Positions 42,844 through 62,362 of a DNA stretch of 64,000 nucleotides are shown in pieces; within the stretch, counting starts at the first letter, position 1; every line of letters begins with the position of its first letter. Position numbers and translations under genes: made by a program. This DNA is from Clostridiales bacterium Firm_04 (lineage in GTDB: Bacteria > Bacillota > Clostridia > Oscillospirales > Ruminococcaceae): contig LVAJ01000014.1 in assembly GCA_001603005.1 (NCBI GenBank), positions 124,001-188,000 of the forward strand, read 5' to 3'. Under the pieces are notes generated by a model. The model worked only from the letters and a program-made list of their open reading frames with translations, was not told the origin of the DNA and did not search any database.

Positions 42844-44388
42844 TCAGAATGCCTGCGCATCGAGATCGAGGTACTGAACCTGTCCGAAGACGGCATTGCC
42901 GTTCCGCTCGGTCAGATCCTTCAGCGAGGAGATGATCGAAGCATTGATGCCTTCGGATTTCTTTGCAACTGCGATCTTGTATTCCGCAGTGACCTGTCCC
43001 GCAGGTGTTTCGTGCGGCGAAAGCAGGATCGCGTGCGCGGTATTGACCGAGTTGATGATGTTGTTGTAGGCGTTTGTCGTGTCATCAGACGGCACAACGA
43101 TTACAAATTCATCCGATCCGGTGCGGTAGATCGTACCGTTCTGGAAGACTCTGCGCAGTGCATCAACGGTGGAGAGCAGAACCTGATCGCCCGCGTCGTT
43201 GCCGTACATGGAATTGATCTGGCTGAACTCGGAAATATTGACAAAGATGAAATAATAGCAGTTATCCGGAATGGATTCGAGCTTTTCCGCATCCATGGAG
43301 AAGGAAACACGGTTGTTCGCATCTGTCAGGATATCCTTGAACATTGCGGTCGTGAGGGACTGCTTTGTTTTTTCGGTCTTGACGATCTGCGAGGAGAGCT
43401 TTTTGTTGACGGCTTCCTGCTTCTTGTTGATGAAGTGGAAGACAGCGATCAGACCGATCAGCAGCAGACCGAACAGCGACAGGAAAATGCGCATGCTGTA
43501 TGCCATTTTGTAGACATCGTTCTTGGTGTCGTTGATCATCAGGAGCCAGTTATGCTTTTTGATATATGAATAGGAAGCGATATATTTCTTGTCGTTTTCG
43601 GTGTATTCAAAGTTGCCGGTGTTGACATCGTCATTGCTGCCGCCGCGGTTTGCAACGATCTGGTCGCAGACAGCAAGGATCTGTTCATTATCGGTTTCCT
43701 GCTGGATCATGTACTGATTGGTGTGGAAGATGATCTTGTGCGTATCCACATCGACCATCGAGTACTGCGAATTAGCAAGTTCACGGGTATTCAGCTCGTT
43801 GAGGTTTGCGATCAGACCGTCGGTGAAGATACCGATACCGACCAGACCGATCGGCGTGGTGCCGTTGTCGTCGTAGACCGCTTTATACATGGAAACGATC
43901 TGCTTGCCGCTGGCAGGGGAGATGATGATACCCGTGTCATACACACCGCTTCCGGCTGCGAGCATCGCATCCTGAAGCTGCTGGAGCAGCGCGGGATCGG
44001 TTCTTGTGGTCATGCCGACGATCTTGCTGTTCGTATGCGTGAGCACATGCGTGTTCCATTCACTGGCATAGATGCCTTCGAGGAACGGGATATCCTTTGA
44101 AAATTCCTCGGTATATTTCTGCGCAACCTTTTTGTTGACGGTGCTGGACGGATCCTTGAGCAGGTCGATGATCTGCGAAGCTCGGCTGTACGCCGTCAGT
44201 GTTTTTTCCGCATTGTCAACGTAGTTGCTGACGATCTGTGCACGGTCCTCTGTGACGGTCGCAAGATGATCCAAGGAATTGTTGCGTGTAGTGTAACTGA
44301 CAAATGTTGTGACGATCAGCATGATGATAATCATGATCACCAGCTGAATAATCAGGATCCGGTTGACTGCTGATTTTTGCTTTGCCAT
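42844..44388 (-). CDS. dCache membrane sensor with degenerate GGDEF domain
   Basis: 514 residues. Membrane helix 1 (about 11-31), an extracellular double-Cache-like domain (about 35-295: YASEWNTHVLTHT, MYKAVYDDNG, LGLVGIGIF-like strands), helix 2 (about 298-318) and a C-terminal GGDEF fold. The signature is TGSDEF rather than GGDEF, and the first metal Asp is Asn (FVNISEFSQINSMYG), so c-di-GMP synthesis is doubtful; binding or dimerisation may remain. It starts 41 bases after the deaminase-fold gene and shares its promoter. Extracellular ligand unknown. Confidence 0.82.
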   Translation of the reverse strand: MAKQKSAVNRILIIQLVIMIIIMLIVTTFVSYTTRNNSLDHLATVTEDRAQIVSNYVDNAEKTLTAYSRASQIIDLLKDPSSTVNKKVAQKYTEEFSKDIPFLEGIYASEWNTHVLTHTNSKIVGMTTRTDPALLQQLQDAMLAAGSGVYDTGIIISPASGKQIVSMYKAVYDDNGTTPIGLVGIGIFTDGLIANLNELNTRELANSQYSMVDVDTHKIIFHTNQYMIQQETDNEQILAVCDQIVANRGGSNDDVNTGNFEYTENDKKYIASYSYIKKHNWLLMINDTKNDVYKMAYSMRIFLSLFGLLLIGLIAVFHFINKKQEAVNKKLSSQIVKTEKTKQSLTTAMFKDILTDANNRVSFSMDAEKLESIPDNCYYFIFVNISEFSQINSMYGNDAGDQVLLSTVDALRRVFQNGTIYRTGSDEFVIVVPSDDTTNAYNNIINSVNTAHAILLSPHETPAGQVTAEYKIAVAKKSEGINASIISSLKDLTERNGNAVFGQVQYLDLDAQAF

Positions 44389-44429
44389 AGTGCTAATTAC
44401 TTCCTTTCAAGATTCTTGAGTCGGTTGGA

Positions 44430-45017
44430 TTATTTCTTTTTGAAGAGTCCGCCGAACCGTTTCTTTTTCTCTGGTTTTTTCTGCTTGGGATCGTCCTCAT
44501 CATCTTCGATGGAATCGAGCAGAGAATTGACGCGGCTTTTGATCAGATTCGCATCATTCGTCGCTTCGCGCACCTGAACGGAAACAGAAGAAACACTGGT
44601 GACAGAAGGTGATGTGACCGGTCTGCCGATCGGGCGGAGCTTGTCGATAAATTCCGCGATCGGGACAGCTCTGTCCATCATCATGATCTCGCAGCGGTTG
44701 TTTTCCGGATTGAGCGAAATGATGTTCAGCATACAATTTTCGCAGGGGAGCATCGGCATGCCGTTTGCAGTTGAGATGAGCAGCAATGTCCGGATCTGCG
44801 TTTCGCCGGTTGCCTTCATGTTGCGGATCGCTTCTATTTCCGCATGGATATTGAGAAGCGTACCGCCGGAATTTTCGCGCCGGTTCAGTCCGGTATAAAG
44901 CTTGCCGGAGCCCGTAGACAGAACGCAGACGGTGTCATCCGGCAGTACCGGTTCACCGCTGCGGATTCTTTGATTTGCGATCTCATGTGCTCTTTGGAAA
45001 ATCGCATCATAATTCAC
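44430..45017 (-). CDS. Cytidine-deaminase-fold protein with zinc site
   Basis: 195 residues from a GTG start behind AAAGGTGG. The zinc motif is complete: His58-Ala-Glu60 and Pro91-Cys92-Glu-Asn-Cys95, as in cytidine deaminases. Residues about 140-195 form an unstructured tail with SLLDSIEDDEDD and a Lys-rich end (KKKRFGGLFKKK). Substrate unknown; free or modified nucleosides are possible. The tail motif R-x-x-S-L-L-D recurs in the catalytically degenerate relative at 46465. Promoter at 45104-45132; first gene of an operon with the GGDEF sensor. Confidence 0.75.
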   Translation of the reverse strand: MNYDAIFQRAHEIANQRIRSGEPVLPDDTVCVLSTGSGKLYTGLNRRENSGGTLLNIHAEIEAIRNMKATGETQIRTLLLISTANGMPMLPCENCMLNIISLNPENNRCEIMMMDRAVPIAEFIDKLRPIGRPVTSPSVTSVSSVSVQVREATNDANLIKSRVNSLLDSIEDDEDDPKQKKPEKKKRFGGLFKKK

Positions 45018-45103
45018 GCCTGAAACCACCTTTCTGTGCGATGCTTTTGATCGAATTTTAGTACAAATGCTCAAAAAACAAAAAAGCAATATCCTTTTTT
45101 ATG

Positions 45104-45743: not shown

Positions 45744-46271
45744 ATGACCTATATGCTGAATGATATTGATGAAGCAATAGATCGCAAATTTCTCGTGACC
45801 AAGACGCTGAGCAATCAGGTGCAGGCAGGTACGATCGTGCACATTATGGATGCGCACAGCGAGAAGGACGGCAAAGTGACGGTCTATTATCGGATTACGT
45901 ATACCAAGCAGGATTATACGGTGAAGTTTGACAATGTCAAGCAGTTCTGCAAGTGGGCGCGTCCGGATAATTTCATTGCCCGCCACTATGAGAGCTTCAA
46001 TATCAAGGAGATTCAGCGATATGTCAAGCTGAAGGACAGAACCTTTACGTCTTTCTGTCTGCCGCTGATTCTGGTCGCCCTTCTGATCGTCTGGGCGGCA
46101 GTTTTGCTGCTGTTCGGCGGGAAACCGATCGGCATTATTCTGGGCGTTGTGATGTCCATTCTCGTAGCGGTGCTCATCACCATCACATACCGTTCCAGCC
46201 GGCAGAAGGAACTGGTCAAGCTGTACAGCAAGGTCAGTGCAAATTCCAACTGGCGCGTGAACTTTAAGTAA
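45744..46271 (+). CDS. Small two-helix membrane protein, unknown function
   Basis: 175 residues. A soluble N-terminal part (1-100) with an SH3-like beta pattern (VQAGTIVHIMDAH, VTVYYRITYTKQDYTVKF) precedes two adjacent membrane helices (about 103-125 and 128-148) and a basic tail. GAAGGGGTG precedes ATG 45744. It is the only plus-strand gene inside the minus-strand signalling operons, with its own promoter and terminator. No recognised family. Confidence 0.75.
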   Translation: MTYMLNDIDEAIDRKFLVTKTLSNQVQAGTIVHIMDAHSEKDGKVTVYYRITYTKQDYTVKFDNVKQFCKWARPDNFIARHYESFNIKEIQRYVKLKDRTFTSFCLPLILVALLIVWAAVLLLFGGKPIGIILGVVMSILVAVLITITYRSSRQKELVKLYSKVSANSNWRVNFK

Positions 46272-46380: not shown

Positions 46381-46419
46381 GATGCAGGGGCGTGCGGAAC
46401 CGATGCTGCGGATATAAGA

Positions 46420-46449
46420 AAGCCCGTATCTTTTCGGATACGGGCTTTT
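46420..46449 (-). terminator. Terminator after the kinase operon
   Basis: 11-bp stem AAGCCCGTATC / GATACGGGCTT between convergent genes; short T-runs on both sides. Confidence 0.75.
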
Positions 46450-46464
46450 GATCACACAGCTTTA

Positions 46465-47706
46465 TTATGAGTTTTTATTGAAATTGAAATTGTTCTTTGC
46501 GACCTTTTTGCGCTCCTTGGCATTGCGCAGCATTTCTTCCTTGGAAAGACCGGTTGCAGATTCTTCTGCTGCATCTGCTGCCGCTGCCGCCTCATCATCA
46601 AGCAGACTGGTCAGGCGCTTTCTGAACGCACCGCCGCCGCCTGCACCGAGATTCTGAGAGACCATTGTGCTCTGCGGAATGCCCTGTGCATGCACAGAGC
46701 CGGTTGCAGCCGCCGCCTGCGGATTGATATAGGAGCTCTGCTGCTGCGCGGGATAGCCGCCCTGCTGGGGATAACCGCCCTGCTGCGGGTAACCGCCCTG
46801 CTGCGGATAGCCGCCCTGCTGCGGATAACCGCCCTGCTGCGGGTAGCCGCCCTGCTGGGGATAACCGCCTTGCTGCGGGTAGCCGCCCTGCTGCGGGTAA
46901 CCAACCTGCTGCGGATAACCGCCTTGCTGGGGATAACCGCCCTGCTGGGGATAACCGCCCTGCTGCGGGTAGCCACCCTGCTGCGGATAACCGCCCATCT
47001 GCGGGTAACCGCCCATCTGCGGGTAACCGCCCATCTGCGGATAGCCGCCCTGTGCGCCGTTGAAGACCGGGAACTGGAAGCCGGGATGCTCTGTCTGCTG
47101 CTGTGCCGGATAAGGCTGCGCAGTCGGAACCGGTGCCGCTGCTTCCGGATCAATCGTTTTGACATCGTCGATCGCAGTATTCGGTGCTGCAAAGAACGGA
47201 TTGCTTTCATCAATTTCAATGGTGCCGACAGATTCGGATGCCGGTCCGAGCTTCTTCTTGGTCGGCGCAGGCGCGGATTCTGCATCATCAAATCCGCTCA
47301 GGAAATCGTTGACTTCCTCATGCGAAACCGGAATAATCGCAGAAACCTCTTTTGATTCGGTTTCCGAAACGGCAACGATACATGCTGCGTTTGCCATATT
47401 CGCCTTGATGAGCTGCTTGAGGCTTTCATCATCCGGCGCAGAAACAGTGCCGTCGGCGACCTTGACCGTTGCCATGGATACAGCGATCTTTGCGGCAGGA
47501 ATTGCCTGAATCGCCTGAATTTCCGACGCAGAAACAACTGCTGCGCCGTCATCGTATTTCACGCCGGTGGAACCGCTCACGATTCCGTCACGGTCAATCG
47601 CGATCAGCGTGACAGCAGCATCCGGCATCGCTGCAAAATCCGGAAATGATTCCTTCACCTTTGCAGCATACTCCTTTGCGGTGCTGAGGAGTGCGTTGAT
47701 TTCCAT
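46465..47706 (-). CDS. Degenerate cytidine-deaminase-fold protein with GGYPQQ repeats
   Basis: 413 residues. Residues 1-130 align by pattern with the active deaminase-fold protein at 44430, but HAE is ASE (Ser61) and PCxxC is PDDES (91-95), so the zinc site is lost. Residues about 218-330 are about 18 tandem six-residue units, mostly GGYPQQ with three GGYPQM units. The C-terminal tail holds [15 protein letters not shown], echoing the R-x-x-SLLD motif of the relative, then a basic end. Fifth and last gene of the operon starting at 52165. A partner or substrate of the kinase/phosphatase pair is plausible but inferred. Confidence 0.75.
46748..47050 (-). repeat. 18-bp tandem repeats encoding GGYPQQ
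   Basis: About 17-18 in-frame copies of an 18-base unit. Silent differences (GGG/GGT, CAG/CAA choice) between units show it is not a very recent expansion of one unit. Confidence 0.85.
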
Positions 47707-47774
47707 AAGAACACCAAACCTTCCCTTGAATATCTGATCCGGCTGTGCCGGAATCTGATTCCTCTAAACCGGTA

Positions 47775-48689
47775 TTAATCAGAATTTTTCAGCGCAGCCA
47801 GTCTCTTTGCCTTGCGTTCAGCAGCATGTGCTTTCTGATCTGCAACCTTTGCCTTCAATTCCGGCGCTTTTTCGGCGAGATAATCGCGGTCACAGATGCA
47901 GGCGAGAGAAATATCATCCTCTGTTCCGAAATGCGAACGCTTCATCAGATTCTTCTGAATGGACTTCTCAAAGGTTTCCAGATGATCAAGCTGACTGGTG
48001 ATGATCAGATGATACTCCAGAAAATCATCTTCATTGCTGAAAGAAGTATAAAGACCGTCTGTCGAAGCATACATCGCAATGACCTTTTCATGCTCGGTAT
48101 AAAAGCTGTTGAACATGGAAGCGGCATTGCTGTTGCACATGGACGCTGTCATATTTGCGGGGGCGGATTCGTCGTAATTCATCGGCATGACGGGGACGCC
48201 GTCCTCGAAAATCGCGACAAGGCTGCCGTCACCGATCTGCATGCCGAACTGGAATCCGTTTCCGCTGACCGCAACGATCAGTGTCGTGCCGTAATAGGAC
48301 TCTACGGGGATCGCCTTGAACTCATCCTTTGTAAATTTGTTCATCTCGGCGAGCTTCACTGGGTTCTGCTCCAGATGGCGCTGTACGCGGGCATTCCAGT
48401 TGACGATGATCTGCTTTTCGATATTCTTGATAATCAGCTTGTGGTTTGCAGGGAAACTCTGCTCAAAGCGCTCCGGATCCTTATAGAAATGCCGAACCGT
48501 TTCGAGTGCTGCTTCGACTGCAAACTGGGAACCGACATGGCTCCGGAAATATTTTTTGCTTCCGTGTCCGTCTGCACTGACTGCGATCGAATAATGCTCA
48601 TTGATCTCGAATGCAGAATGATCCTGACAGACAAGACCGGTTGCTTCGTGGCTCGCACCGATTACAGAATGGCTGAAACCGCCGAACAT
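47775..48689 (-). CDS. PP2C-type protein phosphatase of the triad
   Basis: 304 residues from ATG 48689 (a GTG lies one codon earlier; AAGGGGG serves either). PP2C motifs are visible: CQDHSAF and VSADGHGSKKYF (metal Asp, Gly), YGTTLIVAV, QIGDGSLV, YASTDGLY and EDDISLACI. The C-terminus (about 270-304) is a basic, Ala/Lys-rich helix. It should remove phosphate from Ser/Thr targets of the adjacent kinase. Kinase, VWA protein and PP2C in a row match the arrangement called the TerY-P triad. Confidence 0.88.
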   Translation of the reverse strand: MFGGFSHSVIGASHEATGLVCQDHSAFEINEHYSIAVSADGHGSKKYFRSHVGSQFAVEAALETVRHFYKDPERFEQSFPANHKLIIKNIEKQIIVNWNARVQRHLEQNPVKLAEMNKFTKDEFKAIPVESYYGTTLIVAVSGNGFQFGMQIGDGSLVAIFEDGVPVMPMNYDESAPANMTASMCNSNAASMFNSFYTEHEKVIAMYASTDGLYTSFSNEDDFLEYHLIITSQLDHLETFEKSIQKNLMKRSHFGTEDDISLACICDRDYLAEKAPELKAKVADQKAHAAERKAKRLAALKNSD

Positions 48690-48742
48690 CACAACAGTCC
48701 CCCTTGTGAGATAAAGATAGTATGAAAAATAGGTTCCGGTGA

Positions 48743-49675
48743 TTACCAGCCGGTATCCAGCGAGATCGCATCCGCATCGCCGAGATTCGTCATCGAATCC
48801 TGGATCTGCTGACCGAGCAGCTTCTGCTTTGCAGAGCGGACTTCCTCCTCGCTCAGTTCATGGTTGACGTCATCGGAGAGCGTCATACTCTTGCTGCCGA
48901 TCTGTGCAGAGGTGACCGCGATGATCTTGATCATCTGTGCGAGCTGACCGCCGGAGTAAGCATGCACGACGGTATCCTTGGAGCCGGTAAACTCCTCGAG
49001 CATTTCGTCGTTTGCTTCGCTGCCGATGCCGAGCGCAGCCTTCAGACCGAACTTATACCAGCTGTTCTGCTTGAGCTCCTCGAGTGCTTCCTTATAGTCA
49101 TCGGACGGATAGCCGTCTGTCATGAGGAAGATGACCGGAGCAAAGGACAGGGACGGGGAGTTGAGGAAGCTGTTGCGGGACATTCTCGAAGAAAGCTCAC
49201 GGAAAGCTTCACCCATGTTCGTCACGCCGTCCGCACGCAGACGGGACCATTCAAAGTCCTCGATCAGGATCGGCTCGGAGTACATCCAGCGAACCTGCGT
49301 GCCGAAGGTCAGAACCGCGATCTTGACATCCGTATCTGCCTCACCGACTCTGCGGATCTCAGGGATCAGCTCCTCCATAACGGTATTGAGCTCACCGATC
49401 TTCTTGCCGACCATCGAACGCGATGTGTCGATCAGGAAGAAGATGACCAGACTCTTTTTGGAAACGCCGGTCGCGCTCAGCGGATCGTCGTCATCGAAGT
49501 CAAAGAGGTCATCGTCTGCATCCGCAGCGGGTGCAGTTTTTGCTGCCGGATCAACAGCAGCTGCGAGATTCTGGAGCGCTTCTGCTGCATCCTGAGCAGT
49601 CTTTGCAGCCTCCTCCGCAGCTTTTTCAGCCGGTGTACCGGTTACCGGCTCTTTTTTCTGTTCGTTACTCATCAT
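48743..49675 (-). CDS. TerY-like von Willebrand A domain protein
   Basis: 310 residues. A charged N-terminus (about 1-70, with DDDLFDFDDDD) precedes a VWA domain with an intact metal site: D83-T-S85-R-S87, Thr in GVTNMGEAF and Asp in LMTDGYPSDD. The tail (about 270-310) is helical. TerY-type VWA proteins assemble with the kinase and phosphatase of stress-response cassettes. ATG 49675 follows AAGGAAG. Second of the triad members, 39 bases after the kinase gene. Confidence 0.87.
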   Translation of the reverse strand: MMSNEQKKEPVTGTPAEKAAEEAAKTAQDAAEALQNLAAAVDPAAKTAPAADADDDLFDFDDDDPLSATGVSKKSLVIFFLIDTSRSMVGKKIGELNTVMEELIPEIRRVGEADTDVKIAVLTFGTQVRWMYSEPILIEDFEWSRLRADGVTNMGEAFRELSSRMSRNSFLNSPSLSFAPVIFLMTDGYPSDDYKEALEELKQNSWYKFGLKAALGIGSEANDEMLEEFTGSKDTVVHAYSGGQLAQMIKIIAVTSAQIGSKSMTLSDDVNHELSEEEVRSAKQKLLGQQIQDSMTNLGDADAISLDTGW

Positions 49676-49714
49676 TCAGATACTTCCTTTCCAATATGCG
49701 AATGCATCAGGGCA

Positions 49715-51058
49715 TCAGAGCGATGCCGTCACTTCACCGAAATCAATCACAAGTCCCTGCCAGATCGGGAAGCCCTTTCCGGGCGGGATATCGTAGAAAT
49801 CGCCGTCGGGCATTTTTGCCCGCCAGACCTTATCCGACATATTTTTGAATCCGAGTACACCGGGCTTTAACTTGTTCTCCACAAGCTCGCCGGCAATGGT
49901 CTGGAAATCCTCGGAATCCGGATCAATCTCGCACTCATAGAAGACAGAGCCGAGATAGAGCGGCATGCGGTTTTTGCGGTTGCTGAATTTGAGTGTATCG
50001 AATATGGTGCCGCACTGCGGGCACTTATAGGATTTGAAATCCGGCTGTTTGAACATGGATGTGAAATTGGTTCTGCCGCAGGTGCACTGGATGATCTCGG
50101 AGCGCAGGCGAATGAAGATCTTCTGCCATTCGTTTTCGATGATGCGCTTATTGGGATCCGAGATGCCGAGCGTAAAGGAGCGGATGAACGCATCCTTGAC
50201 ATAATCCGGATAAATGCGCCAGAACTTGATGACGTTGTCATGGATCCCGCGGACGGGGCGGTTGCTCGCGTCATCCGGATCATAGATGAAGACGGCGTTC
50301 TGACCGTAATGCTTCAGTTCAGAGGATTCGGTCAGGCAGACGTCCTTGACGACCTTTTCGCCCTCCATCGGATCGCCGCGGAACAGCAGCTTAAAGAGGA
50401 CGACTGCAAGCGAATATTTATCCGTCTGCACATTCGGCTTCGCAACGCCGCGGACGACCTCCGGCGCCATATAGCCGGGCTTGCCGCCGATTCCGAAGTT
50501 GCTGCCGTCCGGTGCGATGTTATCGCAGTCGCAGACGAGCACGGCACCGGTATCCATGTTGATGAAGAAGCCGCCGTCGTTGAGATCCTGATAGCTCTTG
50601 CCGGCGCGGTGAAGCTGCCGGAATGCATTGACGATATTGATGACCGCTGTGACCATTGCAAAAAGGCTGGTAAAGCGGACAGGGGTTTTCGTGGAGCGTC
50701 CGGTCAGCGGATCGACCGAAAGCTTATAGGTATTCAGGATATCGACAAAGGAATCGAAGCTTTCGGGCTTCAGCTCCATGAGGTAGCCGAAGGTGCCGTC
50801 GGGATTCTCCTTGGTCAGATATTTTGGCCACAGGAACTTATTGCTCGGCGGTCCGTCGCTGATATTGTTCTGAATATTCTTGCGGAACGCCTTGGGGTTT
50901 TTCATCTTGTCGATGTCATACCATTTTAAAGCCCATTTCATTCCGTTGTAACGGACGAGGTACACAACGCCCTGTCCGCCGCTGCCGATCACACCGAGCA
51001 CCTGCGCTTTGCCGCCGTACTCCATTTCGACTTCCTGACCGATCGAAAGTTCAACCAT
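49715..51058 (-). CDS. Ser/Thr protein kinase with zinc ribbon (TerY-P-type)
   Basis: 447 residues. Gly loop GSGGQGVVY (25-33), Lys45 in WALKWYD, catalytic YQDLNDGGFF where HRDLKPEN is usual (Asp kept, Asn replaced by Gly), and CDCDNIAP in the DFG position. A zinc ribbon follows (about 328-355: CTCGR, CPQCG), then a C-terminal beta domain (about 365-447) of unknown role. It lacks membrane helices, so it is cytosolic, unlike PASTA kinases. GGGAGGACAG precedes the ATG. Activity is likely despite the Asn change, since the lysine and aspartates remain. Confidence 0.85.
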   Translation of the reverse strand: MVELSIGQEVEMEYGGKAQVLGVIGSGGQGVVYLVRYNGMKWALKWYDIDKMKNPKAFRKNIQNNISDGPPSNKFLWPKYLTKENPDGTFGYLMELKPESFDSFVDILNTYKLSVDPLTGRSTKTPVRFTSLFAMVTAVINIVNAFRQLHRAGKSYQDLNDGGFFINMDTGAVLVCDCDNIAPDGSNFGIGGKPGYMAPEVVRGVAKPNVQTDKYSLAVVLFKLLFRGDPMEGEKVVKDVCLTESSELKHYGQNAVFIYDPDDASNRPVRGIHDNVIKFWRIYPDYVKDAFIRSFTLGISDPNKRIIENEWQKIFIRLRSEIIQCTCGRTNFTSMFKQPDFKSYKCPQCGTIFDTLKFSNRKNRMPLYLGSVFYECEIDPDSEDFQTIAGELVENKLKPGVLGFKNMSDKVWRAKMPDGDFYDIPPGKGFPIWQGLVIDFGEVTASL

Positions 51059-51109
51059 ACGAATCTGTCCTCCCGTGAATGAAATTTAAGTCTGTACTCC
51101 GGAAACCGG

Positions 51110-52165
51110 TTAGCGGGATGCGGCGGGGAGATAGGTCTCCACGGGGATCGCATTGCCTAAACAGTACTTATAAACGTATGAATTTTCCACGCAGACAATG
51201 GTCAGGCGCGGGCAGTAAGCGAAGGCATTCTTGTCGATGAACTTTACGCTGCTCGGGAGCGTCAGCTTGCGCAGCTTTTCGCAGCCTGCGAACGCCTGCT
51301 CGCCGATGCTGCTGACGGTATCGGGGATCTCAACGACTTCCAGACTCTTGCAGAAAGAGAATGTACTGTCGGCGATCTCGAAGACGCCCTTCGGCAGATT
51401 GATGCTGACAAGCTTTTCGCACTGGCTGAAAGCTGCCTGACCGATCATGCGGAGCGAATCCGGCAGCTCGATCATGCGCAGATGCTTGCAGTTGGAAAAC
51501 GCATATTCACCGATCGCGAGCAGAGAAGACGGCAGCTGGACGGAGCGCAGATTGCTGTAACCGTCGAAGCTGAACTCCTCGATCTTCGTGCAGCCGTCCG
51601 GAATGACGACATTGCGCGAGAACACACGGTACTTCTGTGCGGCAGCACGCGTAAAGACATTGTCATTGACGCTGACCGGTCTGGTCTTCTCCTTCGGTTC
51701 CTCATCCTCGGCAGTCTTCTCCTTGACGCGCAGGGGCGATTCATATGTCCAGCCCAGCATATAGGTCAGACATGCGAGCACAAATTCGGCAGCATTTGCG
51801 GAGAGGAACTTTTCTCCGAGCATAATGCTTTTTGCCTTTGTGATCGCCATTTCATGATTGCCCTGCTCGGAGAGCAGCACGCCGAGAATATTGTCCTCGA
51901 CCATCGAACGCAGAAGCTTGCGCTCCTTGTCATATTCGGCAGTATAATCATTGAGGAGCGCAGTGAACCGCTTTCCGTCGAACAGCAGGGAACCGCCGCT
52001 CCGGATAAACAGATCGTTTGCATGCTCCTTGAGCATTGTTTTCAGCTGGAACTGAATAAGCTGGGTATTTTCAAAGCCCTCAATATTCTGTGGGGCAGGT
52101 GCTCCGCATTCCGGACAGGCAACACTGTTCGGGGGGAGCTCAGCATGGCATTTCTCACACTGCAT
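51110..52165 (-). CDS. Zinc-ribbon protein with BspA-like leucine-rich repeats
   Basis: 351 residues. The N-terminus has a zinc ribbon (CEKCH, CPECG), then a helical middle (about 35-150), then five or six BspA-type LRR units (about 200-345: LPSSLLAIGEYAFSNC, LPDSLRMIGQAAFSQC). There is no signal peptide, so unlike most BspA proteins it is probably cytoplasmic, a likely recognition module for the triad. CAGGAGAATT precedes ATG 52165. First gene of the operon; 51 bases before the kinase. Confidence 0.85.
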   Translation of the reverse strand: MQCEKCHAELPPNSVACPECGAPAPQNIEGFENTQLIQFQLKTMLKEHANDLFIRSGGSLLFDGKRFTALLNDYTAEYDKERKLLRSMVEDNILGVLLSEQGNHEMAITKAKSIMLGEKFLSANAAEFVLACLTYMLGWTYESPLRVKEKTAEDEEPKEKTRPVSVNDNVFTRAAAQKYRVFSRNVVIPDGCTKIEEFSFDGYSNLRSVQLPSSLLAIGEYAFSNCKHLRMIELPDSLRMIGQAAFSQCEKLVSINLPKGVFEIADSTFSFCKSLEVVEIPDTVSSIGEQAFAGCEKLRKLTLPSSVKFIDKNAFAYCPRLTIVCVENSYVYKYCLGNAIPVETYLPAASR

Positions 52166-52249: not shown

Positions 52250-52278
52250 ATTATAGCATGTTTTTAAGCTGTTGTCAA
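52250..52278 (-). promoter_or_regulatory. Promoter for the triad operon
   Basis: TTGACA (52278-52273), 17 bases with extended TGC, TATAAT (52255-52250): full consensus. Confidence 0.8.
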
Positions 52279-52520: not shown

Positions 52521-52603
52521 ATATAGAAAGAAGGGCAGACGGTGTCAGGACTGCCTGTCTGGATTTATTACGGGTTTCTATTTAAGTAATGGAGGAAGAT
52601 TAC

Positions 52604-53887
52604 ATGAAGGAAAGAGAAAGCAAGCTCCGAATCAAATCAATGCTATGCTGTCTGGCGATGCTTTCAGGTCTGATGACGACTGCATGCGCATCGCAGGGAG
52701 GCAATGCGGGTGCTTCGGAAAAGAAGATCTACGTCATCGGACAGACCGAGGGAATGCAGTTCTGGGACAATGTAAAACTCGGCGCGGAACAGGCAGCCGA
52801 GGAGTTTCACTATGACATGCATTTTTCATGCTCCAAGTCTGTTTCGGACATCGAAGGGCAGATCAAGCTGATGGAGGAGGCGATCAGCAGCCATGCAGAT
52901 GCGATCGTCATTGCACCGAACAACTCCGATGCGCTGGCGGACACTGTGAAAAAGGCGAAGGATGCAGGCATCGCGGTTGTTGCGATCGACGCTGATTTCA
53001 ACGATATGAGCATGCGTTCGTCCTATGTCGGAACGAACAACCTGACGAGCGGCAAGATCGCCGGACGTCATGCGACCGAGGCGTTTGAGGATATTCAGAA
53101 TGATAAGGTTCTGATCGTCACGCACTCTGAGACGGCAGCTTCTGCGCAGCAGCGTGTCGGCGGCTTCCAGAGCGTTGTCGGACCGTATTACGGCTCCCAG
53201 ATGCAGGCAATCGCCATGGCTGCAAGAGAGGATGCGATGAAGCAGGCAATGGCGCAGGCGCAGGCAGGCGGCAATAATGAGAACGGTGAAAATGCAGGCG
53301 GACCGCCCGAAGGCATCGGCGGACCTCCTGACGGCGCAGGCGGACCTCCTGACGGCGCAGGCGGACCTCCCGACGGCGCAGGCGGACCTCCCGAAGGTGT
53401 CGGCGGAGCGCCCGAAGGTGTCGGCGGATCTCCCAGCGGCGAGGGCGGTGCTCCGGAAGGCGCACAGGGCAGCCCGATCGCAGCGGTTCTGAACTGCGGC
53501 GGCGATGTCAATATCGCAAAGGCACAGACGATGGAACAGCTGAAACAAAATCCGGACATCAAAATCGTTTATGCGACAAACGAGACCTCGACGCTCGGCG
53601 TCTGCCAGGCAATTCAGGAAATGGAATACGATCCGGATGAACTGACCGTCATCGGCTTCAACTCCAATGAAGCAGAGATCCAGTATCTCCGCAACGGTGT
53701 GCTGGATGCGCTGATCATTCAGCATCCTTATAACATGGGCTACCTCGGCGTGCATTACGCCGGTCAGGTCAGCAGGGGCTCTTCTGTCTCCGCATTGGAG
53801 GATACAGGCTCCATGTATGTTACGATGGATAACCTTGAGAGCGAAGAAGTCCAACTGTTTTTGGATCCTGCCGGATTCACGAATTAA
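52604..53887 (+). CDS. Ligand-binding lipoprotein (Peripla_BP_4 type) with collagen-like insert
   Basis: 427 residues. Signal with TTAC lipobox (about Cys25). A periplasmic-binding fold of sugar type: YVIGQTEGMQFWDNVKLGAEQ, AIVIAPNNSDALADTV, SSYVGTNNLTSGKIAGRHA and, in the second lobe, TVIGFNSNEAEIQYLRNGVLDALIIQ. Between the lobes, residues about 225-290 are Gly/Pro-rich repeats of a GGPPDGA/GGPPEGV unit, not known to me in this family. No permease or ATPase gene follows, so it more likely senses a ligand than imports one. GGAGGAAG precedes ATG 52604; operon head. Confidence 0.82.
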   Translation: MKERESKLRIKSMLCCLAMLSGLMTTACASQGGNAGASEKKIYVIGQTEGMQFWDNVKLGAEQAAEEFHYDMHFSCSKSVSDIEGQIKLMEEAISSHADAIVIAPNNSDALADTVKKAKDAGIAVVAIDADFNDMSMRSSYVGTNNLTSGKIAGRHATEAFEDIQNDKVLIVTHSETAASAQQRVGGFQSVVGPYYGSQMQAIAMAAREDAMKQAMAQAQAGGNNENGENAGGPPEGIGGPPDGAGGPPDGAGGPPDGAGGPPEGVGGAPEGVGGSPSGEGGAPEGAQGSPIAAVLNCGGDVNIAKAQTMEQLKQNPDIKIVYATNETSTLGVCQAIQEMEYDPDELTVIGFNSNEAEIQYLRNGVLDALIIQHPYNMGYLGVHYAGQVSRGSSVSALEDTGSMYVTMDNLESEEVQLFLDPAGFTN

Positions 53888-53905
53888 GGAAGGGAGGATA
53901 CAAAA

Positions 53906-55144
53906 ATGGCTAATAATGCAAAGGAAAAGAAAAGCTCAGGCGGACTGGGTTATGCGATCCTTGCGGTCGTATTCGCTCTGGTCATGCTGCTGAACTTCGG
54001 ACTTCTGAACTGGACGTATAACCGTGCAATTCAGACCTTTAACCTGACATCCAATGAAAGCCGTACGCTGAACAGTGCAAACGGCATCCTGCAGAGTGTG
54101 AACGAGCAGTTCATGCAGATCGTTGCACAGCTCGGTATTCCGCAGCAGCATCTGGGCACGATTGCCGGAATGTTCCCTGCGGTCAAAAACGCAATGAACG
54201 AGTTTGAAAGCCTCGAAGGTCATGATGAGCTGGCTGAGCGCCGGTTCAAACATGCGCGTGCGTATGTCGATGCTTACGAGCAGAAGATGATCGAGTACCG
54301 CACACAGCTGACGAATCTGCTCGAAGCCGGTGACGAGGATGCGCTGAATGCGTTCTACGCACAGCTTCCGGATATTTACGAATCCGAGATCGCACCGATC
54401 CAGGCTGCTGCATCGCAGATGCTGACGGCAACGACCTCTATCATGGCTTCTGCGGCAAATGCCCGTACTGTCTCGCTGACGCGGATGATGAACGTTGTTC
54501 GCCTGATCATGCTCGGCATTCTGGTGCTCGGCGAGATCGCAATTCTCTTTGCTGCAAGATTCAGAAAGCGTGCGAACGAGGAAATTTCGAGAAAGACTGC
54601 GCAGTTTGCGGATGCTTCTACCAAGCTGATGCGCTCCCGCGAGAAGATGGAGGATATTGCGGTCATCAGCATCCTGACAGGTCTGAAGAACCGCTATGCG
54701 CTGGAACAGGATCTCGGCGACCGTCTTGCAGAGGAGCAGTTTAATATTGCGGTGTTCGATATGGACAATTTCCGCAGTATCAACGATACCTATGGCTATG
54801 AGTTTGGCGACGAGTATCTTGCACAGGTCGCAGAGCGCCTCAAGACCGAGTTCGATCAGTTTGCTGATATCTACAACATCACCGGCAATGAGTTCTGCTT
54901 CGTGTTCAAGAGAACCGTTTCCGATACACAGGCGATCCGCCTTGTGGACAGCATTGCCGCTGTCATGAGCAGCCCGTACACGATCTTCAATCTGACGGTT
55001 CAGCTTTCGGTCTCCGCAAGTACCTACCATTATCTTGCCGGCGACTGCCTGAATGTCAACTCGCTGCTTGTGAAGATGGACAATGTGCTCCGCAATGCAA
55101 AGAGAGCCGGCGGCGGACAGATTCTGCAGGTCGTCAATATCTGA
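53906..55144 (+). CDS. Membrane protein with degenerate GGDEF domain
   Basis: 412 residues. Helix 1 (about 14-34), an all-helical extracellular sensor (about 40-190, four-helix-bundle-like), helix 2 (about 193-215), a linker, and a GGDEF fold from about 250. The metal Asp region VFDMDNFRSINDTYGYEFGDEYL is intact, but the active loop is TGNEF instead of GGDEF. Diguanylate cyclase activity is therefore uncertain. AAGGGAGGAT precedes ATG 53906, 18 bases after the binding lipoprotein, which may be its ligand partner. Confidence 0.82.
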   Translation: MANNAKEKKSSGGLGYAILAVVFALVMLLNFGLLNWTYNRAIQTFNLTSNESRTLNSANGILQSVNEQFMQIVAQLGIPQQHLGTIAGMFPAVKNAMNEFESLEGHDELAERRFKHARAYVDAYEQKMIEYRTQLTNLLEAGDEDALNAFYAQLPDIYESEIAPIQAAASQMLTATTSIMASAANARTVSLTRMMNVVRLIMLGILVLGEIAILFAARFRKRANEEISRKTAQFADASTKLMRSREKMEDIAVISILTGLKNRYALEQDLGDRLAEEQFNIAVFDMDNFRSINDTYGYEFGDEYLAQVAERLKTEFDQFADIYNITGNEFCFVFKRTVSDTQAIRLVDSIAAVMSSPYTIFNLTVQLSVSASTYHYLAGDCLNVNSLLVKMDNVLRNAKRAGGGQILQVVNI

Positions 55145-55461: not shown

Positions 55462-56700
55462 ATGTCTGATACGAGATTTATGCAGACTGTGCTGTTCGGC
55501 GGATACGAGCGATCTGCCGTTGAGAAACGCTTTGAATCTCTTTGCACACAGCTGTTTACGCTGAAAAATGAATTGCGTGAATCAAAGCTTCTCCTGACTG
55601 AACTGCGCAGCGGTTCGGAAGAATCCGCCGCGCTGGAAAAGATTCTCGCCGGCGAACGCGTCAAAATGGCGGAGGTGCAGGCGCAGAACGAAACGGTCTC
55701 CAAAAAGCTCCGTGCCGCGGATGACGATATTGCGGAGCGGGATCAGGAGATCGAAAAGCTGAAAGCGCAGATCACGGCGCTTCAGGATGAGCTGACGCAG
55801 AAAACCGAAAAGCTGACCTATCTCGAAGCCAATTCGGACGGAGAGGCGCTCAGCGCGGTCTTTATTGAAGCACAGAAGTCAGCAGATCTGCTCGTGAGTA
55901 TGGCAAAAAAGGATGCCGCAGCGCTGGAGACCAATTCCAAGCGGCTCGCGGACAATCTGGTCACCGAAGCGAATAATACCGCGAAAAAGCTGATCTATGA
56001 TGCGGAAGTGCGCAGCAGCGAGATGCTGACCGATGCAGAGAACCGCAGCACACAGCTGGAAACGGCATCCGAAAATCTGAAGGCGAGTGTGCTGGGCGAT
56101 GTCAGCCGTCTGATGACAGAGGTCGATGCACTGAAAGCGGCGTTCGGCAGATTTCAGGAGAACGGTCTCGGTGCGCTGTCCGAAGCGGAGCAGATGCTCA
56201 GTGAAACGGACACCAATCTGAAAATCGGCGGTGTTCCGGTGTTCCGTACACCTGTGCCGGTTGATCGCAAGCTGCCCGCGGAACCGGAACTCGAACCGGT
56301 CGAACATGCGTATTACACGGAAGCGGACGCAGCCGCCGCAGAAGCAAAGATCCAGCGCGAGGAGGAGTTAAAACGGCTCCGCGCAATGGCGAACTCTATT
56401 ACGGAAAAACACAGCGAGCCGGCAGCAGCGGATATGCAAAGTGCTGCGGATATCCTGCCGGAACCGGAGGATCTGCCTGAGCCGGAAGCCCCTGAGGAGG
56501 AAATCCTGCCGAAGCACGCGGAGCATTCCGCTCCGGAGCCCGCTGCGGTGACCGAACCGGATTCACCGCATGAACCGCCGGCATCCGAAACGGTCGGAAA
56601 GATCGTGCCGGATCTCGCCGCACTCGCGGCGCAGGCAGATGCGCTCAGCCAACAGGGTAAAAAAAAATACAAGTATCCGGGACGCAAAAAAATTGAATGA
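55462..56700 (+). CDS. DivIVA-like coiled-coil protein
   Basis: 412 residues. FGGYERSAVEKRFESL at the start resembles the DivIVA membrane-binding N-terminus; residues about 20-125 are long heptads, then an Ala/Lys helical region (about 130-215, AQKSADLLVSMAKKDA) typical of DivIVA/GpsB relatives. The C-terminal 150 residues are Pro/Glu/Ala-rich and disordered, ending in a basic KKKYKYPGRKK tail. It may act as a scaffold for the adjacent Fe-S protein; this is inference. AGGAGGTAAGG precedes ATG 55462. Confidence 0.75.
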   Translation: MSDTRFMQTVLFGGYERSAVEKRFESLCTQLFTLKNELRESKLLLTELRSGSEESAALEKILAGERVKMAEVQAQNETVSKKLRAADDDIAERDQEIEKLKAQITALQDELTQKTEKLTYLEANSDGEALSAVFIEAQKSADLLVSMAKKDAAALETNSKRLADNLVTEANNTAKKLIYDAEVRSSEMLTDAENRSTQLETASENLKASVLGDVSRLMTEVDALKAAFGRFQENGLGALSEAEQMLSETDTNLKIGGVPVFRTPVPVDRKLPAEPELEPVEHAYYTEADAAAAEAKIQREEELKRLRAMANSITEKHSEPAAADMQSAADILPEPEDLPEPEAPEEEILPKHAEHSAPEPAAVTEPDSPHEPPASETVGKIVPDLAALAAQADALSQQGKKKYKYPGRKKIE

Positions 56701-56736
56701 AACTGATTTGAAAAGGAATTGAGGAGTGTTTACGAA

Positions 56737-58416
56737 ATGAACGAGATTATTATTGTCAAGCCGGAAAAATGTGTCGGCTGCAATGCCTGCGTCAGAAGCT
56801 GCCCGGCGCCGGAAGCCAATATCACCAGAAAGCTTTCTGACGGCAGATTCATTACATCTGTGGATCCGGAACGATGTATTGCATGCGGCGCATGTATCAA
56901 CGCATGTTCGCACGGCGCCCGCGACTATATTGATGACACAGAGGACGCGATGAATGCGGTTCTCCGCGACGAGAAGCCGATCATTATGGTCATGCCGGAG
57001 ATCAAGGCGGCATATCCGACCAAATGGAAAGGGATCCTCGACTGGTTTCGCAGCAAAGGCTGCGTGCTCTACGACGTATCCTTCGGCGCAGATATCTGCA
57101 CATGGGCGCATCTCCGCGCGTTGGAAAATAATCAGATCGGCAACATCATCACACAGCCTTGCTCCGCGATCGTGCGCTATATCGAGCTGTATCAGCCGAA
57201 GCTTCTGACGAATCTTTCGCCGATCCACAGCCCTGTTTCTTGCTGTGTGAAGTACATCAAGGAGTATCAGCGCAGGGACAATCCGATCGCCGTGCTGTCG
57301 GCTTGTATCGCAAAAAAGACCGAATTTGCAGAGACCGGTCTGGTCGATTTCAGCATCACCTTCCGCAAGATGATGGAGTATTTTGACCGCAATGATATCC
57401 GCATTGCTGCGAATCCGGTTGACGATTATGAGTACAAGTTTGATGATGTGCAGGGCGCACTCGGCTCGATCTATTCCAGACCGGGCGGCATGCGGGATAA
57501 TCTGCTTGCACATGCGCCGGATCTTGCGATCGCGACCTCTGAGGGTACCCAGAAGGTCTACCGCGATCTGGAAATGTATGCGAAAATGCCGGAGCAGAAG
57601 CATCCGCAGGTTTATGATGTCATGTCCTGCGAATTTGGCTGCAATATGGGACCGGCATCGGATTCCGACCAGAATGCATTTGATATGATGCTTGTGATGC
57701 GGGATGTGGAGCAGGAGGCACGCGAGCGCCGCAAGACCTCGACGAGCATGTTCCGCGGCACCGAGGATAAGCTGTTCCGCCGCTTTGACGAGGAACTGAA
57801 TTTCAACGATTTCATCCGCAGCTATAAGCCCTGCAAGCCCTCTGTCGTACCGAGTGAAGCGCAGCTGGAACCAATCTTCCAGTCGCTCGGCAAGGAGACA
57901 GAAGCACAGCGCTGTCTCGACTGCAATGCCTGCGGCTATCACACCTGCCGCGAAATGGCAACAGCGATCTTCCGCGGTCTGAATACGCCGGACAATTGCC
58001 TTGTGCATGCAAAAACCGTTATGGCAAACGGCGGCGGTGCCGGATCCGCAGATTTCAGCGGCGTTGCAGGCGACTGCAAGCAGATCTCCGAGCAGCTCCA
58101 GCAGACAGCAGGGGAGATCTCCGAATCGCTTGAGTCGATCGAAGCATCTGCGTCCGCCACGGGCGAGCGTGCGGTCATGGTCAATGATCTGCTGCGCAAT
58201 GTCGTTGCGTTCTGCAACGGCAATCCGGTCATGGATGAGGACAGCGTCAAGCAGCTGACCGGCATTCTGGAGACCACGATCTCCGCGCTCGGCGCATTTG
58301 ACGAGAATGTTTCCGAAACGAACAAGTCTTCGGAAGTGATCGGTTCTTCGATCGAGCGGATGCGCGGGATGCTGGATTCGCTGAACGATTCGATCGCAAA
58401 GATCAGCGCGAAGTGA
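56737..58416 (+). CDS. Sensory [FeFe]-hydrogenase-like protein with chemoreceptor-like tail
   Basis: 559 residues. Two 4Fe-4S motifs (CVGCNACVRSCP, CIACGACINAC) lead into an H-cluster-type domain with Cys142 (ITQPCSA), Cys190 (LSACIAKKTE) and Cys298/Cys302 (MSCEFGCNMG), the four H-cluster ligands of [FeFe]-hydrogenases. An additional Fe-S domain follows (CLDCNACGYHTC, 393-404). The C-terminal 130 residues resemble a chemoreceptor-like signalling helix (IGSSIERMRGMLDSL). The first H-cluster motif departs from TSCCPxW, as in sensory (HydS-type) groups. ATG 56737 follows GAGGAG. Likely a redox or hydrogen sensor. Confidence 0.82.
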   Translation: MNEIIIVKPEKCVGCNACVRSCPAPEANITRKLSDGRFITSVDPERCIACGACINACSHGARDYIDDTEDAMNAVLRDEKPIIMVMPEIKAAYPTKWKGILDWFRSKGCVLYDVSFGADICTWAHLRALENNQIGNIITQPCSAIVRYIELYQPKLLTNLSPIHSPVSCCVKYIKEYQRRDNPIAVLSACIAKKTEFAETGLVDFSITFRKMMEYFDRNDIRIAANPVDDYEYKFDDVQGALGSIYSRPGGMRDNLLAHAPDLAIATSEGTQKVYRDLEMYAKMPEQKHPQVYDVMSCEFGCNMGPASDSDQNAFDMMLVMRDVEQEARERRKTSTSMFRGTEDKLFRRFDEELNFNDFIRSYKPCKPSVVPSEAQLEPIFQSLGKETEAQRCLDCNACGYHTCREMATAIFRGLNTPDNCLVHAKTVMANGGGAGSADFSGVAGDCKQISEQLQQTAGEISESLESIEASASATGERAVMVNDLLRNVVAFCNGNPVMDEDSVKQLTGILETTISALGAFDENVSETNKSSEVIGSSIERMRGMLDSLNDSIAKISAK

Positions 58417-62193: not shown

Positions 62194-62200
62194 GATGCTA

Positions 62201-62310
62201 TCTTCAGGGCAGGGTGCAATTCCTGACCGGCAGTGATAGCCTGCGAGCCGCAATGCGGTTGATTCGGTGAAAATCCGAAGCCGACGGTATAGTCCGGATG
62301 AGAGAAGAAT
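62201..62310 (+). ncRNA. FMN riboswitch (RFN element)
   Basis: TCTTCAGGGCAGGGTG at 62201 and the later blocks CCTGACCGGC, GATTCGGTGAAAATCCGAA and GCCGACGGTATAGTCCGGAT are the conserved RFN segments closing on AGAGAAGAAT. When FMN binds, the terminator at 62363-62393 is expected to form and switch off ribD/ribE. Confidence 0.95.
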
Positions 62311-62362
62311 AATCAGGATATATCATGACCGCGCGGTCTTTCTGATATGTCGCAATTTTCAG

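Follow-up and report, generated by a model that had tools for sequence, protein, structure and literature searches.

A Ruminococcus operon with a TerY-P-type kinase triad, a helical adaptor domain and a degenerate deaminase-like protein

The DNA analysed here is a stretch of 64,000 nucleotides (the window) of contig LVAJ01000014.1 from Clostridiales bacterium Firm_04, the genome of which comprises 3.54 Mb in 53 contigs; its close relatives in the survey below are named Ruminococcus and Oscillospiraceae. Five genes on the minus strand (46465-52165) encode a leucine-rich repeat (LRR) protein, a Ser/Thr protein kinase, a VWA protein, a PP2C-type phosphatase and a protein with GGYPQQ repeats, here called the GG protein. 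An earlier note on this DNA had placed the five genes in one operon with a full-consensus promoter. This is borne out: the intergenic gaps are 51, 39, 50 and 68 bp, and all twelve promoter positions match. Purine-rich stretches precede the starts of the operon genes. Antisense open reading frames (ORFs) returned by the ORF finder were disregarded. The operon contains:

52250..52278, minus strand: promoter, TTGACA-17 nt-TATAAT with TG before the second hexamer, 12/12 match, sigma-70-type
51110..52165, minus strand: LRR protein, 351 aa, with zinc ribbon, helical adaptor domain and BspA-type LRR (PF13306, 4.3e-40)
51716..52108, minus strand: helical adaptor domain, residues 20-150 of the LRR protein, six helices in the AlphaFold2 model (pLDDT 91)
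49715..51058, minus strand: Ser/Thr protein kinase, 447 aa (PF00069, 7.6e-11)
49718..50128, minus strand: kinase C-terminus, zinc ribbon and FHA-like domain (AlphaFold2 pLDDT 89)
48743..49675, minus strand: VWA protein, 310 aa (PF00092, 2.6e-10)
47775..48692, minus strand: PP2C-type phosphatase, 305 aa (PF13672, 2.6e-33)
46465..47706, minus strand: GG protein, 413 aa, with degenerate deaminase-like head, NPF motif, GGYPQQ tail and basic C-terminus
47257..47706, minus strand: deaminase-like N-domain of the GG protein, zinc ligands lost (ASE / PDDES)
46751..47056, minus strand: 18-nt tandem array of 17.1 copies, coding for the GGYPQQ repeats
46419..46448, minus strand: 12-pair hairpin after the last gene, a possible terminator with a weak T run (-19.1 kcal/mol, z -5.9)

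The PP2C start in relatives is the ATG at 48689. The zinc ribbon of the LRR protein is a weak match (Pfam 4.1e-5, below cut-off), and a terminator scan of the window does not list the hairpin at 46419..46448.

TerY-P systems are described in PMC11090510 as a TerY-like VWA protein, a PP2C-like enzyme and a kinase with a C-terminal zinc ribbon. The operon encodes a VWA protein, a PP2C and a zinc-ribbon kinase; by composition and homology it holds a TerY-P triad, as had been supposed. The key residues are in place. Kinase residues K45, D158 and D177 and the zinc-ribbon cysteines C325, C327, C346 and C349 are invariant in 15 diverse kinases; the VWA MIDAS residues (D83, S85, S87, T152, D187) and the PP2C motifs (ADGHG, GDG, DG, DD) are each invariant in 11 sequences. 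Residues 142-393 of the kinase match the ter-cluster kinase of an IncHI2 plasmid (26% identity, E 6e-14), which sits at the end of a ter cluster that also contains TerD, PP2C and three VWA genes. A Prevotella plasmid kinase is 39% identical, and the gene order there is kinase-VWA-PP2C. YegI, YegK and YegL of E. coli (kinase, phosphatase and VWA) are candidate homologs of the triad. The VWA profile matches ter-cluster VWA genes at 1e-40 to 1e-49 and has one match among solved structures (8s05, 2.6e-5); profile searches of the structure library gave nothing for the kinase at E up to 1e-6 and nothing for PP2C at 0.001. Matches of the kinase to lanthionine synthetase, MADS6 and PD-T4-6 were rejected as generic kinase-domain cross-matches, the NCBIfam ones being far below their cut-offs.

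The kinase end is modelled as a zinc ribbon followed by an FHA-like domain, the latter a feature that the earlier note lacked. FHA proteins make up most of the 50 Foldseek matches listed for this model (probability up to 1.00, best E 0.016); TIFA, which we take to be an FHA protein, is counted among them. The triad in ter clusters (Anantharaman et al. 2012, as cited through PMC11090510) is alike in keeping a TerY-like VWA, PP2C and zinc-ribbon kinase together, and the kinases are homologous. Unlike it, this operon is without TerD and adds the FHA-like kinase domain, the LRR adaptor and the degenerate-deaminase protein. TerD was found in none of the 16 operon-positive genus genomes searched and in only one of 30 genus genomes, the operon-negative G008, which agrees with the proposal of a distinct version without ter genes. 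Genome G008 has six TerD matches (L145-L148, L187).

The five genes co-occur across relatives, as the same proposal had anticipated. The survey of named relatives took the best 80 of 113 loci, including cultured R. flavefaciens and R. albus strains. The LRR gene is present in 77 of the 80, and the other three contigs begin inside or at the kinase gene; VWA (75/75), PP2C (73/73) and GG (65/65) genes are found in every relative with room on the contig. A strict scripted rule recovered the LRR gene in 67/74 loci, the seven misses failing the distance rule only, with the gene present by tblastn and gene order. Within the genus, the kinase occurs in 12 of 25 genomes, its own included. Of the 11 relatives whose loci were compared, the ten that are uncut before the LRR gene hold all five genes, and the eleventh has the four that can be tested; among them, the GG gene is cut by the contig end in L022 and frame-broken in L024.

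The GG gene follows PP2C or a GGDEF gene in all 65 testable relatives; in 12 of these, the GGDEF gene lies between PP2C and GG. Examples of the inserted gene are L078 11188-12144, L067 11254-12279 and L141 3237-4292. Compared with the window, the kinase has a median identity of 82%, VWA 81%, PP2C 63%, the LRR protein 56% and the GG head 34%. These rates fit a core that stays fixed and ends that vary and change fast, a caveat being that kinase peptides were used to collect the loci. The promoter is also conserved: a site matching at least 11/12 positions occurs in 59 of 61 relatives (those of the 80 with a located LRR start and upstream DNA) compared with ~3% of 1220 random 250-nt windows from the same loci. 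The possibility that the ORFs and promoter are chance features was rejected, since both the five genes and the promoter are conserved in relatives.

The helical domain of the LRR protein is apparently uncatalogued, and is the main gain of this analysis. Searched against Pfam with matches allowed to E 1, it gave nothing meaningful (DUF6179 at 0.18 is at chance level); its fold has no significant match in the PDB (best E 0.17), and its profile has one chance-level match among solved structures. Among the titles and abstract openings searched, none describes such a helical domain at TerY-P loci, and nothing turned up on this operon in Ruminococcus; the TerY-P paper of Anantharaman et al. 2012 could already contain a description of the domain. 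In the order, the Ruminococcus adaptor profile picks out other proteins encoded near TerY-P kinases; the best of those without LRR matched at 1.2e-6 and 3.5e-5 in the first round, and repeated profile rounds give 12 adaptor proteins in total, the one in the window included. Their partner halves in the order are LRR, Sel1, membrane helices (by eye), UvrD, DEAD helicases and DUF1292. Fusions in neighbouring genes join the adaptor to Sel1, LRR, UvrD, DEAD, FGE, Tim44, Clp_N and zf-ClpX.

In the order sample the adaptor occurs in 15 of 297 genomes, most of which were profile seeds, and 11 of the 13 genomes with a strong kinase have it. The phylum sample of 398 genomes is the fair test, and carries the claim that adaptor and kinase go together: a full-length kinase (E < 1e-140) is found in four genomes, its own included, and the adaptor (E up to 1e-5) is confined to those same four, the remaining 394 being without it. 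Three of these genomes had no part in building the profile. Each of these three has a complete triad with one to three adaptor genes within ~3 kb; one locus has an adaptor-FGE fusion with a TIR-Sel1 gene 1.3 kb beyond, and one has an adaptor-DEAD helicase. Judged from sequence comparison, the adaptor domain tracks the TerY-P-type kinase class into unrelated bacteria, with changing partners. That the LRR protein has a helical domain common to other triads had escaped the earlier note.

On the Methylomonas plasmid CP157007.1 (L258 9882-14418), the triad is followed by five consecutive adaptor genes. Four of the five have recognisable partners, namely Sel1, Tim44, Clp_N and a ClpX zinc finger; the Clp_N and ClpX zinc-finger partners look as if the switch fed protease adaptors. 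The FGE protein of the Prevotella triad matches the first adaptor profile at 0.0014 only, and its later strong match is to a profile that already contained it. The looser triads L142-L144 and the IncHI2 triad have no adaptor in a profile search of all frames. An all-frame search shows that L137 has its VWA gene; the adaptor match in G095 is marginal and has stops in frame. At L190 (5076-9346) and L189 (7240-11494), an adaptor protein lies beside a protein of 963-964 aa with a closely similar start, with no triad nearby.

Effector-associated domains (EADs; PMC7159879) offer a parallel, as there too an adaptor domain is repeated on variable partners in neighbouring genes. In contrast to EADs, no fusion of the adaptor with kinase, VWA or PP2C was found, and there is no Pfam match, though distant kinship to a described EAD family is conceivable. 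No frame in 27 loci matches both the adaptor and a kinase, VWA or PP2C profile, and because of this lack of core-component fusions the adaptor is not filed as an EAD. In the actinobacterial GAP1-N2 systems described by the same source (Kaur et al. 2020, PMC7159879), PP2C and vWA accompany a kinase in which a zinc ribbon is joined to a beta-rich domain, an architecture that the kinase here probably shares; compared with those systems, no GTPase was noted in the loci read, no search having been aimed at GTPases. The triads with Sel1, FGE and helicase adaptors (Prevotella, Methylomonas, other Bacillota) share the triad and the helical N-domain and differ in their C-terminal partners. Two of them are plasmid-borne, and profile searches found no degenerate deaminase in the Methylomonas, Prevotella and phylum-sample triad loci searched.

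The GG protein has no match in Pfam. Its head aligns with a paralog elsewhere in the window that has intact HAE and PCENC motifs, and some relatives at the same operon position keep HAE/PCxxC or CSE/PCxxC. The number of zinc ligands kept varies by relative from 0 to 4; all four are present in five of 74 relatives (L055, L067, L087, L093, L100) and in the sister-genus locus L141. Three of five GG homologs tested match PF00383 (L055, L067 and L141, 9e-5 to 1.7e-4), all below cut-off, and L101 and L084 do not match. Against solved structures the GG-head profile has weak matches only, with blasticidin-S deaminase first (E 0.076). Because the window protein has lost zinc ligands that some relatives retain, it is called a degenerate deaminase; most simply, its head would be a decayed zinc-binding deaminase. 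The earlier description of a deaminase-fold protein with repeats is thus supported by homology and by the 17.1-copy array, but had not mentioned the loss of the zinc ligands. Every complete GG protein (61/61) has the NPF motif, and in 54 of the 61 the tail contains three or more YP. This count leaves out 13 of 74 GG proteins: five at contig ends, L079 with a run of N, L090 and probably L085 with frame breaks, and L089, L091, L099, L101 and L104, for which the regular expression was too strict.

The paralog and the gene after it are:

44430..45089, minus strand: paralogous deaminase that retains HAE and PCENC and has a basic tail (PF00383, 8e-7), with its own 12/12 promoter at 45132-45104
42844..44388, minus strand: dCache-GGDEF protein after the intact deaminase (GGDEF 5.8e-16; dCache 1.7e-7, below cut-off)

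An intact deaminase followed by a relative of the dCache-GGDEF protein is found at four of four loci: the window, L223 in the same genome, L224 in G008 and L225 in G003. The pair spans 42844-45089 in the window, 5215-7498 in L223, 5521-7794 in L224 and 4824-7062 in L225. It is possible that the two genes form a deaminase/diguanylate-cyclase module. The pairing is, on sequence evidence, a putative second link of this deaminase group to proteins of the cyclic di-GMP (c-di-GMP) type.

The operon is flanked by the following genes:

45744..46271, plus strand: small membrane-type protein, 175 aa, convergent here
52589..55144, plus strand: divergent pair, periplasmic-binding protein and GGDEF protein
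55462..56700, plus strand: coiled-coil-type protein, DivIVA-like only weakly (E 0.032)
56719..58416, plus strand: [FeFe]-hydrogenase-like iron-sulphur protein, probable sensor (PF02906, 4.8e-24)

Of 60 testable relatives, 56 have the membrane-type gene downstream, with the same orientation in 36 of them and the opposite one in 20. The divergent binding-protein gene is found in 38 of 59 long relatives, and the hydrogenase-like gene on the stretches of 50 of the 59. The hydrogenase-like protein carries an additional Fe-S domain and has a long C-terminal region; by eye, its cysteines lie near what we take to be the usual cluster places. Within the periplasmic sugar-binding-type protein, a 21-nt tandem repeat at 53294-53464 encodes a low-complexity, GGPPDGA-like insert, and an FMN (flavin mononucleotide) riboswitch lies at 62196-62313 (111 bits).

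Two of these neighbours go with the operon across the genus. The operon is present in 16 of 30 genus genomes, called by the kinase in 25 and by GG in all 30 (G323-G327 by GG alone). A strong ortholog of the hydrogenase-like gene is found in 16/16 operon-positive and 0/14 operon-negative genomes, and the membrane protein in 16/16 (one partial, at a contig end) and 1/14. On an rpoB tree of 24 of the 30 genomes (six are without a usable rpoB locus), the hydrogenase-like gene agrees with the operon in 24/24, the membrane protein in 23/24 and a control gene, HflX-like as named by eye from sequence, in 11/24. Co-distribution as a mere clade effect is disfavoured by the tree and the control gene, though there are only five independent pairs.

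The likeliest reading, to which we give about even odds, is that the operon is the Ruminococcus form of a TerY-P phosphorylation switch, a cytoplasmic phospho-switch with an exchangeable adaptor. From the parts, residues, conservation and co-distribution observed, we infer how such a switch could work. The helical domain would dock the LRR protein onto the triad, where the LRR may read a cytoplasmic partner or a damaged protein; a metal ion would let the VWA protein hold the complex together. The kinase would phosphorylate the tail or linker of the GG protein and PP2C would reverse this, and phosphorylation would decide whether the tyrosine-rich tail is free or clustered. The GG head, presumably no longer an enzyme, may bind a partner or a ligand resembling a nucleoside. 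The switch would serve cell-intrinsic regulation, perhaps tied to the hydrogen/redox and c-di-GMP sensing of the neighbours, and such regulation is more likely than phage defence.

In the defence account, the LRR would sense an invader protein, the kinase would be released, and the phosphorylated GG protein or host targets would stop the cell. A defence role is conceivable because other TerY-P systems protect against phage, acting against T7-like phages (PMC7699616) and protecting P. aeruginosa PAO1 (PMC10889362), and because related adaptors carry defence-like helicases; near related triads there are a TIR protein and helicases that come close to defence models, and related kinases are frequent on plasmids. 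The antiphage systems of Gao et al. 2020 (PMC7699616, PMC11090510 and PMC10889362) share the three protein types with this operon. However, the tested kinases are described there with an OB-fold end (PMC11090510), whereas the kinase here ends in a zinc ribbon and a domain with mostly FHA-type fold matches, none of them significant at 0.001. Unlike those systems, this one has no other defence genes among the 10 flanking proteins, for which defence models gave no match barring helix-turn-helix cross-matches of one protein. A pattern-based IMG/VR scan found no relative, and phage records gave two weak matches only. Across the 80 relatives the kinase keeps 79-98% identity, a slower pace of change than is usual in defence genes, even if the search was biased to conserved kinases. 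The slow kinase evolution, the lack of a relative on viral contigs and the ordinary neighbours lean against defence, and we regard this account as unlikely, if with an appreciable chance of being right. The suggestion in the earlier note of a defence or stress device, with the LRR as sensor, is conjectural: regular chromosomal neighbours, no IMG/VR relative and two weak phage records speak, weakly, against a mobile defence island, but the related kinases on plasmids and the defence-like partners of related triads point the other way. The silence of PADLOC on the VWA and PP2C genes was dropped as a sign that they are not known defence genes; PADLOC also misses the VWA, PP2C and kinase of a control ter cluster, so its silence is uninformative.

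Alternatively, the operon may relay metal or tellurite/oxidative stress as ter clusters do; metal would then be sensed by the zinc ribbons and VWA. The homology of the kinase to that of the IncHI2 ter cluster and the zinc ribbons in the LRR protein and kinase are consistent with this, but TerD is absent from all 16 operon-positive genus genomes and occurs only in the operon-negative G008; we find this account improbable. It is less probable still that the GG protein is a mere structural or cell-surface repeat protein sharing the operon, with the LRR protein and triad as the working unit. The GG head diverges fast and the tail is variable or missing, as such a bystander might; yet the gene is present in all 65 testable relatives, and the NPF motif in all 61 complete proteins.

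Several observations weigh against the phosphorylation switch with its exchangeable adaptor, or against parts of it. The 80 relatives were collected via exact kinase peptides, which biases the set to conserved kinases. The operon is patchy in the genus: the rpoB tree requires at least five changes, a pattern that is equally compatible with an accessory or a defence role. A sign test over the five independent pairs gives only p 0.0625, and since the operon and the hydrogenase-like gene are mostly linked, contig loss in incomplete assemblies can mimic co-loss. Matches to related kinases occur in 1731 of 72,556 plasmid records; in four of these the match covers 80% or more of the query. The adaptor is absent from the weaker six of the 10 phylum genomes with a kinase match, and from the stretches read around three strong-kinase triads of the order (L136, L138, L139); adaptor matches in G044, G051, G145 and G238:C51 do not adjoin a triad, and L130 (5880-9717) and L131 (6760-10862) have a full-length kinase and a Sel1-adaptor with no VWA or PP2C in the stretch. 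At the kinase end, none of the 50 Foldseek matches listed is significant at 0.001 (best E 0.016), and the residues that we take to be standard for phosphothreonine binding are not evident by eye. Seven of the 61 complete GG proteins have fewer than three YP, so the tail is not essential; position in the operon is the sole pointer to the GG protein as a candidate kinase substrate.

TerY-P triads are known, in the parts of the literature available, as add-ons to ter clusters or defence systems, with no general rule for their inputs or targets. A broader and more doubtful proposal is that they are general phospho-switches whose sensors and effectors are exchanged via one apparently undescribed helical adaptor, comparable to the EADs of bacterial immune networks, and that in Ruminococcus the switch controls the clustering of a nucleoside-binding pseudoenzyme with a prion-like tail, tied to hydrogen/redox and c-di-GMP sensing. 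If this is true, one helical domain with changing partners would be a rule for TerY-P inputs and outputs and a handle for finding new systems. The conserved Ruminococcus operon, for its part, offers a natural series from a zinc-binding deaminase to a degenerate head, in a genus that has cultured R. albus and R. flavefaciens.

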